Part shown: positions 20,318-28,432 of the stretch, in pieces | How the letters are laid out: each line of letters starts with the position of its first letter | Numbering within the stretch: position 1 is the first letter of the stretch | DNA from: Candidatus Poribacteria bacterium | Lineage (GTDB): Bacteria > Poribacteria > WGA-4E > PCPOR2b | DNA length: 64,000 bases | NCBI GenBank assembly: GCA_003635265.1 | Contig: PYIZ01000052.1 | Location: 62,001 to 126,000, forward strand | Direction of reading: 5' to 3' | Notes under the pieces: generated by a model | Told to the model about the DNA's origin: nothing | Database searches by the model: none | What the model saw: only the letters and a program-made list of their open reading frames with translations | Program-made: the position numbers and the translations under genes

Positions 20318-20409
20318 GGCTCATGTTGAGAAATGGTACAACAGAAACCGAGTTTTGCCGAAAAAACTCGGTTTCTCTTAGTGTTTTGCACTTTCTTTTT
20401 ATACGAGCG
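20318..20409. repeat. Family A MITE-like element, copy 1
   Basis: Ends GGCTCATGTTGAGAAATGGT and (reverse complement of the right end) GCTCGTATAAAAAGAAAGTG form imperfect terminal inverted repeats. The 8-base direct repeat ACTGATTT flanks it at 20310-20317 and 20410-20417. The interior is a long hairpin, AGAAACCGAGTTTT...AAAACTCGGTTTCT, that would also act as a transcript-end stem. It starts 36 bases after the lectin-fold gene stop. Confidence 0.75.
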
Positions 20410-24271: not shown

Positions 24272-24392
24272 GGCTCATGTAAAAAGAAAGTGCAAGTCCC
24301 GATACATCGGGATTCCGCCTTGCGGAACACGAAGAGAAACCGAGTTTTGCCAAAAAAACTCGGTTTCTTTGCACTAAATCTTAACATAAGCG
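24272..24392. repeat. Family A MITE-like element, copy 2
   Basis: Inverted ends GGCTCATGTAAAAAGAAAGTGCA and, on the opposite strand, GCTTATGTTAAGATTTAGTGCA. The flanking 8-base repeats TAAAACAA/AAAAACAA differ at one base. It holds a CCCGATACATCGGG palindrome and a GAAACCGAGTTTT...AAAACTCGGTTTC hairpin at 24336-24367. It ends only 11 bases before the P1-peptidase ATG. Confidence 0.75.
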
Positions 24393-26576: not shown

Positions 26577-27030
26577 GAGATATCCTCCTCAATTGTGGGC
26601 AGTCTCGTGCAGCGAGGCAGATAAATTTCATTCATGCGCCGCTTGCTCCTTTAGAACCACGTAGTTAATGCAAAATGGGTTCTAGTCCGCACCGATATCT
26701 AGCTTCAGTGATGACGGTCCAATCAGCTTGCGCTTCAACAGATTTTCGAGCATATAGCAATCAACACACATCATCTGAGTCAACGCTAAGGAGGGCAGCG
26801 GGGTTTCCGAAACCACCGAGTCGGGCGTGTTTGTATTATTTTCTATTTTTGAGTCATCCGACAAACTAAGACCTTTTGCGGATTAAACGAAATAACAAAT
26901 AGGTGAAATCTGTTGAGCCGATCATTGGCTTTGCTCGTCTTTTGGTGTAAACTTCATCATACGTCAAATCGTCAATTAGTATTGGTAGTTAATTGTGTTT
27001 TTTTGACGACTGTGTTGCGAAAGTCAATAA
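26577..27030. other. Intergenic region left of the IsrB locus
   Basis: No recognised gene or strong promoter apart from a doubtful 60-codon minus-strand ORF. The right-hand ~80 bases are AT-rich. The ~20 bases just before 27030 would be the guide portion of the omega RNA if it has the usual layout (guide 5' of scaffold). Confidence 0.4.
26682..26864 (-). CDS. Possible small protein, unknown
   Basis: 60 codons beginning MSDDSKIEN, acidic N-terminus, one CVDC motif, no membrane helix. Only a weak purine stretch precedes the ATG. It lies in an otherwise empty gap upstream of the channel gene on the same strand. It may be chance; listed because the Cys-x2-Cys could be functional. Confidence 0.25.
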   Translation of the reverse strand: MSDDSKIENNTNTPDSVVSETPLPSLALTQMMCVDCYMLENLLKRKLIGPSSLKLDIGAD

Positions 27031-27223
27031 CCCCGCCCGAAAGGGCGAGGCTTGCAATCCCGTGCCAACGGGCACTTGTAAGTTAAACCGTTGACTAGAC
27101 GATTATATCACGGGTCTAAGGCGTGGCAGCCTAACTGATGGTTCGGGTGCTCCCCAAGCCTGAATCCCCTCTGATTCCGTGATGTCGATGGGGTAATACA
27201 CACACCCGCAGGAGTGATTTACA
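27031..27223 (+). ncRNA. Predicted omega RNA (HEARO-like) scaffold of the IsrB system
   Basis: The stretch directly before the isrB start folds strongly by eye. CGCCC-GAAA-GGGCG forms a tetraloop hairpin (27034-27047). CTTGCAA..TTGTAAG encloses CCCGT-GCCA-ACGGG (27051-27082). AGGC/GCCT (27119-27132) and TTCGGG/CCTGAA (27142-27164) are further stems. ATCACGG at 27107-27113 can pair long-range with CCGTGAT at 27177-27183. IscB/IsrB nucleases are known to use an RNA encoded 5' of the ORF, formerly described as HEARO RNA. The guide would be just upstream of 27031. Exact ends are uncertain. Confidence 0.75.
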
Positions 27224-28231
27224 ATGTTTGTTCCTGTCGTTGACAAAAAGCGTAACCCCTTAATGCCGACCACACCCGCAAGGGCAAGGAAGTGGGTGAA
27301 GTCGGGGAAAGCCACACCGTTTTTTCGGAATGGCGTATTCTGCGTGCGGTTGAATGTCGAACCCTCTGGCACCCAAACACAAGCTATAGCCGTTGGGATT
27401 GATCCCGGTAGCAAGAAAGAAGGGTTCACTGTCAAGTCAGAGAAATCGACATATCTGAATGTACAAGCTGATGCTCATAATAAGGTTAGCAAAAAAGTTG
27501 AAGCACGGCGGCAATTGAGACGGGGTAGACGGTCACGGAAGTGTCCGAATCGGAAGCACCGCACCAACCGCATGGCGAATCAACAACGGCTACCCGCCGG
27601 CACACGGACACGGTGGGATTGGAAACTCCGAATCCTCAACTACCTGTCCACGATGTTTCCGATAACGCATGTCTGTGTTGAGGATATCAAGACACAGACG
27701 CGGCAGGGTGCCCGTAACTGGAACGCGTCGTTTAGCCCCCTTGAGGTGGGCAAGCAATGGTTCTACGCTGAAATCCAGAAGCGTTGGATATTGGTCACAC
27801 TCAGAGGTTTTGAAACAAAAGCAATTCGTGATTCGCTCGGACTCAAGAAGTCTGGCAACAAGATGTCAAATGACTTCAATGCCCATTGCGTAGACTCATG
27901 GTGCTTGGCATACCATGTCATCGGAAGCGATACAGACCAAGTGGACAATACCTGCGTGTTTTATGTCAGTCCGATACCCATTGCACGGCGGCAATTGCAC
28001 AGACAGAATCCACAGAAGGGTGGCAGACGCCCACGCTATGGCGGTACAATGTGCAATGGCATAGCCAAGAACACGCTGGTCAAGCACGTAAAACACGGTT
28101 TGACTCGTGTTAGCGGATATATGGAGAAAAAAGGGTATTCCCTATACTCGTTGGGGGGCAAACGTCTCACTCAGGCTGCGAAACGTGAGAGTTTCAAAGT
28201 CCTCACACGATTAAACTTTAACTATATCTAA
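27224..28231 (+). CDS. isrB: IsrB, RNA-guided RuvC nuclease (IscB relative without HNH)
   Basis: 335 residues, the size of known IsrB. The N-terminal PLMP domain contains NPLMPTTPARARKW (PLMP at 12-15). RuvC-I is AVGIDPGSKKEG with Asp60. An Arg-rich bridge helix spans ~92-118 (RRQLRRGRRSRKCPNRKHR). RuvC-II is VCVEDIK with Glu153 and RuvC-III is HCVDSW with His221/Asp224. Only ~67 residues separate RuvC-II and III and hold no HNH motif, which separates IsrB from IscB. The C-terminus has the basic RRQLHRQNPQKGG...YGGT segment of this family. The ATG has GGAG nine bases upstream. Known IsrB proteins nick target DNA using omega RNA. No TnpA gene is in the window. Confidence 0.9.
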   Translation: MFVPVVDKKRNPLMPTTPARARKWVKSGKATPFFRNGVFCVRLNVEPSGTQTQAIAVGIDPGSKKEGFTVKSEKSTYLNVQADAHNKVSKKVEARRQLRRGRRSRKCPNRKHRTNRMANQQRLPAGTRTRWDWKLRILNYLSTMFPITHVCVEDIKTQTRQGARNWNASFSPLEVGKQWFYAEIQKRWILVTLRGFETKAIRDSLGLKKSGNKMSNDFNAHCVDSWCLAYHVIGSDTDQVDNTCVFYVSPIPIARRQLHRQNPQKGGRRPRYGGTMCNGIAKNTLVKHVKHGLTRVSGYMEKKGYSLYSLGGKRLTQAAKRESFKVLTRLNFNYI

Positions 28232-28290
28232 GAAGGAAACGCTGTTTCCTCTCCGACTTAAAAGACGGGCTTTCCACAGCGAAGATTTCG
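28232..28290 (+). mobile_element. Probable right end of the IsrB-carrying element
   Basis: Just after the isrB stop come a short hairpin, AGGAAACGCTGTTTCCT, and an imperfect stem around TCTCCGACTTAAAAGACGGGC. Subterminal hairpins at this place are typical of IS200/IS605-type ends that carry IscB/IsrB/TnpB genes. The exact boundary cannot be set without an empty-site comparison. Confidence 0.4.
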
Positions 28291-28432
28291 ATGATACAAA
28301 AGTAAAGTATACAGTGCTGATTGTTGGTGCCCGCCCCATTGCGATCTCACGAGTTATTTTCGAGGGCGCACTTCTTCGCTTCCATTATGGTATAAAATTT
28401 GCTAAAATATTGCTATGGTTTTCGGGTGAGAA

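Follow-up and report, generated by a model that had tools for sequence, protein, structure and literature searches.

A non-autonomous IsrB element of Poribacteria in which a hairpin DNA guide and the probable TAM-reading residues appear to follow one target code

The window analysed here is a 64,000-nucleotide stretch of a Candidatus Poribacteria bacterium genome (assembly GCA_003635265.1, contig PYIZ01000052.1, positions 62,001 to 126,000 of the forward strand), and all positions below are counted from its first base. It carries a compact element consisting of an RNA-encoding leader, the nuclease gene isrB, and a right-end hairpin. The element is likely to be a non-autonomous member of the IS200/IS605 type in which a short DNA guide within the hairpin and residues 314 and 317 of IsrB are kept in register by selection. 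This reading draws on comparison with related elements: of the 134 compared, 123 have an insertion site, a DNA guide, and a protein that fit one another.

The element, its protein, and its guide RNA

27023-28290, + strand: the whole non-autonomous IsrB element, 1,268 base pairs (bp), delimited by a gap-free join of its flanks in five congeners
27003-27022, + strand: guide of the omega RNA, TTGACGACTGTGTTGCGAAA, host flank, the 20 nucleotides preceding the left end
28291-28294, + strand: target-adjacent motif (TAM) and insertion target, ATGA, host flank, the first four bases of the right flank
27224-28231, + strand: isrB, from the list of open reading frames (ORFs) and its translation; 335 residues, with catalytic D60/E153/H221/D224 intact

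These three limits—element, guide, and TAM—are set because the joined flanks rebuild empty sites in congeners; the guide length of 20 nucleotides is adopted from DtIsrB, as given in the available portion of PMC9581776. The 5.3-Mb genome holds three copies of the element, the other two encoding proteins 96% and 94% identical to that of the window copy, and a search with the leader returned the same three places and no others. For each copy, flank searches identified the equivalent locus in five congeners, and the element is absent from all of these. For the window copy, the flank join reproduces the empty site in all five congeners without duplication and with a one-base ambiguity (an A); for the copy on contig C53 it does so in four of five, L124 differing by three extra bases; and for the third copy (contig C27) the join is clear in G005 and G001, the TAM having diverged in the other three congeners. 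An earlier reading of the same DNA, made from the sequence only, had proposed a readable guide ending at a left edge near 27031. The guide is indeed readable, but it lies eight bases away, and the left edge is 27023; the empty-site comparison that this reading had proposed also fixes the right edge at 28290.

The guide of the C53 copy matches the empty sites of the five congeners at 20, 18, 20, 19, and 18 of 20 positions. That of the window copy matches at 19 of 20 in G005, where ATGA then follows, and at 12-14 of 20 in the other four congeners, while the third copy's guide matches at 13-14 of 20 in all five. Because unrelated loci also give 12-14 of 20 (chance level), only the C53 guide and the single window-guide match exceed chance. 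Separately, the block at about 27008-27022 together with the following ATGATAC is well conserved across the five congeners (L127-L131) and is a candidate promoter or leader element.

The protein is an intact IsrB, predicted to be an RNA-guided DNA-nicking enzyme. None of the 94 aligned rows departs from D60, E153, H221, and D224 (the rows being the window protein and 93 elements, the window copy counted once more among them), and both an LMPT (PLMP) motif and an arginine-rich bridge helix are present. E153 and H221 are 67 residues apart, and a Pfam scan of the window protein found no HNH domain, RRXRR being the sole family match; the NCBIfam IscB model covers residues 5-160 only and scores 100.4 bits against a cut-off of 175. 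The nearest solved structure by sequence is DtIsrB (8dmb, E = 1.3e-38). It is also nearest by fold (E = 5.9e-18), from a model that is poor outside the PLMP and TI parts (mean predicted local distance difference test 55.2, predicted template modelling score 0.40) and is taken as a fold lead only. The sequence-only reading had named an IsrB without HNH, with some 67 residues between RuvC-II and RuvC-III, and had proposed structure prediction as a check; identity and spacing hold, and the check yields no more than this fold lead. According to the available portion of PMC9581776, DtIsrB shares with the window protein the domain order PLMP-RuvC-bridge helix-RuvC-TI and the absence of HNH, and with its element an omega RNA 5′ of the gene and an NTGA-type TAM. 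In contrast, the window protein is somewhat shorter (335 against roughly 350 residues) and lies on a separate branch; protein set A2 comprised 33 hand-chosen proteins.

The leader between the left end and isrB has the following parts.

27023-27223, + strand: omega RNA scaffold, from covariation over 54 sequences; weak RF02033 match at 27023-27222
27023-27027, + strand: 5′ strand of S1, GTCAA, with partner TTGAC at 27091-27095 (helix 1, 84.1% of cells paired)
27031-27050, + strand: SL1, the hairpin adjoining the left end (helices 2-3, changes on both sides in 7 of 8 pairs)
27107-27113, + strand: 5′ strand of the long-range helix, ATCACGG (helix 5, 96.9% paired, changes on both sides in 5 of 9 pairs)
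27177-27183, + strand: 3′ strand of the long-range helix, CCGTGAT, from the covariation alignment
27152-27155, + strand: CCCC of a likely pseudoknot, with partner GGGG at 27190-27193 (98.6% paired)
27210-27214, + strand: Shine-Dalgarno sequence of isrB, AGGAG, read from the sequence

A covarying omega RNA 5′ of isrB, with its guide drawn from the flank, is supported. Over 54 related leaders (from 65 non-redundant ones, 11 having been set aside by hand), 94.7% of cells pair in the structure as a whole, compared with a shuffled mean of 81.9%; versions in which the partners are slid pair at 32%-44%, a control biased towards whatever structure the alignment itself yields. Changes on both sides occur in 24 of 38 pairs, and the long-range ATCACGG/CCGTGAT helix, already pointed out from the sequence, is among those that covary. 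In helix 1, two of five pairs fail in 20-21 of the 54 leaders, and the CCCC/GGGG pseudoknot is conserved but without compensatory change, and hence unproven. The Rfam HEARO model (RF02033) reaches 23.4 bits (E = 0.024 over 1.5 kb), short of its gathering score of 83. The sequence-only reading had named this search as a check on its RNA, and at the curated threshold its refuting condition formally applies; the leader RNA is nevertheless supported because of the covariation. The match, full-length though weak, is retained as a lead only, and the RNA is not filed as RF02033. A structured RNA 5′ of a nuclease gene is likewise described for HEARO RNA and IscB/HEARO nucleases in the available portion of PMC9755519, from which the window element differs in its sub-threshold score and in the absence of HNH.

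One target probably read by protein and DNA end

Matches at E ≤ 0.001 occur in 45 of the 97 genomes searched, with up to 21 in one. The 112 loci gathered were reduced to 94 by removal of duplicates and to 93 when L048 was dropped; 80 related loci from named records are labelled Poribacteria. The four right-flank bases (n = 94) are ATGA in 66, ATAA in 8, ATGG in 8, GTGA in 7, ATAG in 3, AGGA in 1, and TTGA in 1, and the last left-flank base (n = 90) is A in 40, T in 22, G in 17, and C in 11. The fixed target thus lies on the side downstream of isrB and reads TCAT on the bottom strand; an IS200/IS605 left end, read on that strand, would be expected to have it there.

Three features bear on how this target is read.

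Residues R314 and Q317 of the window IsrB: inferred TAM-reading residues, probably the counterparts of DtIsrB R323 and Q326
28240-28281, + strand: right-end hairpin, by folding, with outer stem CGCTGT/ACAGCG (28240-28245/28276-28281) and inner stem-loop at 28252-28269
28271-28274, − strand: DNA target guide resembling G_L, 5′-GAAA-3′, from agreement of dinucleotide and site in 124 of 134 elements

The equivalence of R314/Q317 with R323/Q326 is probable from spacing and covariation. In DtIsrB, R323 reads TAM base 3 and Q326 reads base 4, and the change Q326R accepts G4 (available portion of PMC9581776); the window protein has the same R/Q pair three residues apart, the expected readers of these bases. 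Among the relatives, residue 314 is R with G at base 3 and Q (or H) with A, while residue 317 is R with G at base 4 and Q, T, L, F, or M with A. Within the 93 elements, those at ATGA have R+Q in 30, R+T in 34, and R+R in one, with one missing; all seven at GTGA have R+T, all seven at ATGG have R+R, and all three at ATAG have Q+R. Six of the eight ATAA elements have Q+L or Q+F, the other two having Q or H after a hand-shifted gap, and the single AGGA and TTGA sites go with R+Q and R+L, respectively.

The residue rule was applied to 41 further elements, which remained from 59 additional copies after removal of 17 genes identical to known ones and of L209, which has no recognisable end. It is correct for 36 of the 41 sites (permutation mean 24.5, highest 32, P = 5e-5). 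Script-called ends account for 34 of the 41 (31 correct); the other seven were judged visually with the prediction already known (five correct). One miss, L182, stems from a miscalled end that reads ATGG by eye as predicted, giving 37 of 41; L196 reflects a motif shifted by the aligner, and L210, L200, and L214 are true misses. Relatives at ATGG, ATAA, and ATAG with matching residue changes set this group apart from DtIsrB, and the available portion of PMC9581776 contains no mention of ATAA or ATAG sites. IsrBs with TAM NTGG or NTG are described there—BbIsrB, whose natural TAM is NTGG, and CwIsrB, CsIsrB, DsIsrB, and K2IsrB—but those TAMs were obtained in vitro, whereas those of the present group come from insertion sites and are linked to residues and DNA ends.

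The DNA end follows the same target. The relatives' right ends are similar in architecture to the window hairpin, in which a single base separates the guide 5′-GAAA-3′ from the inner stem; the leading GA of the guide is able to pair with C and T in the bottom-strand target 5′-TCAT-3′. When the right ends are aligned, one pair of neighbouring columns performs best: it complements the first two bottom-strand target bases in 121 of 134 elements, made up of 84 of 93 in the first set and 37 of 41 in the further one, and in 124 once a one-column shift in three ATAG rows is corrected. Shuffling the labels 2000 times, with scoring confined to that pair and the adjacent ones, gives agreement in 80.7 elements on average and in 94 at most. 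The geometry is that of IS608, where target T-3 is paired by A16 of the left guide and T-4 by A17, so that guide tetranucleotide and target pair through the first two bases of each (available portion of PMC5934647). An earlier idea that the DNA ends stay constant as the TAM changes was wrong, having been based on the spacer only; the guide lies inside the hairpin.

Four codes are found at the last two bases of the TAM: GA, GG, AA, and AG. For GG (n = 13) the protein is right in 12 and the guide in 11; for AA (n = 14, 13 ATAA and one ACAA) both are right in 12; and for AG (n = 3) both are right in all three. In L053, L200, and L210 the site deviates, yet protein and guide agree with each other.

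Start codons as insertion sites

The commonest TAMs, ATGA, GTGA, and ATGG, contain start codons, and Weinberg is said to have reported in 2009 that HEARO elements integrate before ATGA or GTGA. When the site is rejoined, an ORF of at least 100 codons starts at the ATG of the TAM, with an in-frame stop at most 15 codons upstream, in 20 of 63 ATGA insertions (those of the 66 with long enough flanks), compared with 4.0% of 3485 control ATGA sites. More broadly, 73 of the 80 elements at RTGR (R, purine) have adequate flanks: 30 lie at gene starts (in frame, within the first 12% of the called ORF), 35 are intergenic, and 8 are inside genes, against 158, 517, and 2014 control sites, with crude gene calls and controls that are not independent. 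Relative to intergenic sites only, the odds ratio for gene starts is 2.8, and the enrichment may in part reflect TAM content and the loss of insertions inside genes.

All ten downstream ORFs scanned with Pfam gave a match; they include purD, thiI, a dnaN paralog, a gene for a UvrD-type helicase, and, in the window genome, a DUF4862 gene. The window copy is not at a recognised gene start. Insertion at a dnaN start was considered as proof of continued translation of an essential gene and rejected, three genomes (G024, G029, and G041) each having four to five matches to the N-terminal domain of dnaN (DNA polymerase III beta), some in tandem.

28233-28237, + strand: Shine-Dalgarno-like AAGGA before the end hairpin, partly paired in the window copy's own fold

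A Shine-Dalgarno-like motif occurs at −62 to −46 of the TAM in 71 of 80 RTGR elements but in only 4 of 11 ATAR elements (Fisher P = 3e-4, uncorrected for relatedness). Among RTGR elements, 42 of the 44 that are followed by an ORF of 90 codons or more have the motif, as do 29 of the 36 that are not. The right end folds into a hairpin of 39-44 nucleotides plus a spacer of 6-11 nucleotides in 70 of 93 elements (59 of 80 in the RTGR class), and the hairpin may bring the motif near enough to the start codon for translation; T4 gene 38 is a precedent for hairpin-aided translation start. A promoter scan was no better than chance (3 found, compared with 2.3 in shuffles).

The chances are only a little under even that the AGGAG preceding the end hairpin serves end recognition or is a coding remnant, and does not function as a Shine-Dalgarno sequence. 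In many copies it abuts or overlaps the isrB stop codon, and in minimum-energy folds of the last 85 nucleotides it is fully unpaired in just 25 of 71 elements and partly paired in all three copies of the window genome, which counts against a role in translation. A remnant sits less easily with the uneven presence of the motif in start-codon-type and ATAR-type elements, with its retention despite different stop-codon wording, and with the TnpA-bearing ATAA elements L138, L143, and L154, in which the 8-10 displayed bases preceding the hairpin lack the motif.

Inheritance, mobility, and meaning of the code

A tree of residues 1-270, from which the TI domain is excluded, shows seven changes each for TAM base 3 and R314 and five each for base 4 and R317. 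Each of the two comparisons has five supported independent pairs, and the direction of change is the same in five of five for base 3 and R314 and in four to five of five for base 4 and R317. In twelve protein pairs, identity is at least 88% over approximately residues 1-250 and no higher than 65% in the C-terminal part, and two of these differ in TAM base 3: L018 (ATGA) and L076 (ATAA), with 89% body and 47% C-terminal identity, and L103 (ATGA) and L075 (ATAA), with 88% and 41%. Near-identical bodies with different TI domains are also seen in L088 and L096. TI domains therefore appear to be exchanged as modules, with recombination of the C-terminal unit suggested; no protein pairs alike in the C-terminal part only were found (N-terminal identity at most 72% with C-terminal identity at least 92%).

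Shared ancestry of a few subfamilies, in which ends, TAM, and TI domain were inherited together without a functional link, could also produce the three-way agreement. Each trait changes only five to seven times, with P = 0.05 out of reach because only five pairs are supported, and the rare classes are partly clustered. This explanation is nevertheless unlikely, since the changes coincide, near-identical bodies carry different TI domains and TAMs (L018/L076 and L103/L075), and the residues that change appear to be those that read these bases in DtIsrB (available portion of PMC9581776).

Selection for a matched guide and protein, the preferred reading, has a number of points against it. Independent switches are few (sign test P = 0.0625, median 0.125; 23 of 90 inner branches starred), and 11 of 134 elements fall outside the three-way agreement, including L214, which disagrees in all three (R+Q, guide AA, site ATGG), and L092, L101, and L027, which have a GG guide with a GA protein and site. 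Right ends of the first 93 elements were called with patterns limited to the common TAMs plus 11 hand-set ends; the 41 further elements are relatives, partly from the same genomes, and hence not independent; and the guide rule was first noticed with both element sets in view and covers two of the four guide bases. The guide stands at the hairpin foot in IS608, but here it is inside a longer hairpin, adjoining the inner stem. The sequence alignment to 8dmb breaks off short of the TI-domain part at issue, and the overall quality of the structure model is poor. Finally, no partner transposase was found for RTGR-type ends among 34 TnpA loci that were pattern-scanned and 18 that were read upstream.

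As far as the locus was examined, the statement in the sequence-only reading that no transposase is near holds: isrB is the sole sense ORF of at least 80 residues in the element (one antisense ORF of 110 residues overlaps its left part), and the four Y1 transposase matches of the window genome all lie on other contigs. Since the element encodes no transposase, it is classed as non-autonomous and is probably mobilised in trans by a Y1 transposase. Of the two fates that had been offered, mobilisation in trans is thus the better fit, with IS200/IS605-type ends in its favour. Like IS608 and IS200/IS605 elements, it inserts precisely, without target duplication, at a short, fixed, one-sided target, and bears a subterminal hairpin with a putative pairing guide tetranucleotide (two of four bases assessed). 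It differs from those described in the available portion of PMC5934647 in lacking tnpA, in having the fixed target on the strand opposite isrB, and in its targets, which are TCAT, TCAC, CCAT, TTAT, and CTAT and not TTAC. In five IsrB-rich genomes, the TnpA-bearing L138, L142, L143, and L154 have end hairpins resembling those of ATAA-type isrB elements; other TnpA pattern matches, and a TCAT-like motif near L113, were judged by eye to be chance.

Some further observations concern mobile DNA. In L134 (G038:C2, near 221856) an isrB element lies exactly at the start codon of an IS605-type Y1 transposase gene, and L115 and L116 (G000, contig C6) are Y1 transposases of a different kind amid many short GC-rich repeats, RAYT/REP-like by eye. 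The window itself twice contains a 37-bp repeat with arms AAACCGAG...CTCGGTTT (20340-20376 and 24332-24368, 95% identical), possibly a terminator or small mobile repeat.

That IsrB and not a transposase guide selects the landing site, the element spreading by RNA-guided nicking alone, is improbable, somewhat more so than shared ancestry. The absence of a transposase from the element, the identity of TAM and landing site, and the match of the C53 guide to empty sites fit such a route; however, a DNA guide with IS608-like geometry agrees with the site in 124 of 134 elements, and one omega guide would not be expected to match the differing sites of all copies. Domestication for a host role at the window locus, the other fate raised from the sequence in view of the intact catalytic residues and the lack of a transposase nearby, is highly improbable given three copies at different sites in the genome, none at these places in five congeners, and up to 21 matches in one related genome.

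On the preferred reading, a Y1 transposase acting in trans would move the element as single-stranded DNA. Two bases of the hairpin tetranucleotide would pair with the first two of bottom-strand 5′-TCAT-3′, so that the element lands before top-strand ATGA; covariation and geometry are observed for this step, its chemistry being presumed. After insertion, the left flank would become the omega RNA guide. Because guide and ATGA together rebuild the empty site, IsrB could nick alleles without the element, which would favour retention or homing; this nicking step rests on the known OMEGA mechanism. Selection would then keep the DNA landing guide and the protein's TAM readers matched, elements at ATGG, ATAG, and ATAA differing in both. 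In the start-codon class (ATGA, GTGA, and ATGG), the Shine-Dalgarno-like motif may, as a lead, permit translation of the host gene from the TAM's start codon. The combined picture—two reprogrammable readers of one 4-bp address, docking at start codons, a host leader taken as guide, and translation handed back via a hairpin-placed Shine-Dalgarno sequence—is offered tentatively, the odds being somewhat against its holding as a whole.

In the literature searched, neither the three-way agreement nor start-codon docking is reported, and no paper joins IsrB with Poribacteria; the founding HEARO, ISC, and OMEGA papers lie outside that literature and may hold parts of the picture. For small relatives of Cas9 ancestors, the elements point to a natural TAM code in which residues 314 and 317 predict TGA, TGG, TAA, or TAG after base 1. 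They also offer evolutionary evidence that the target choice of a transposase and the TAM recognition of a nuclease may be selected together. If the start-codon reading is true, a transposon could occupy a host start codon exactly without silencing the gene.

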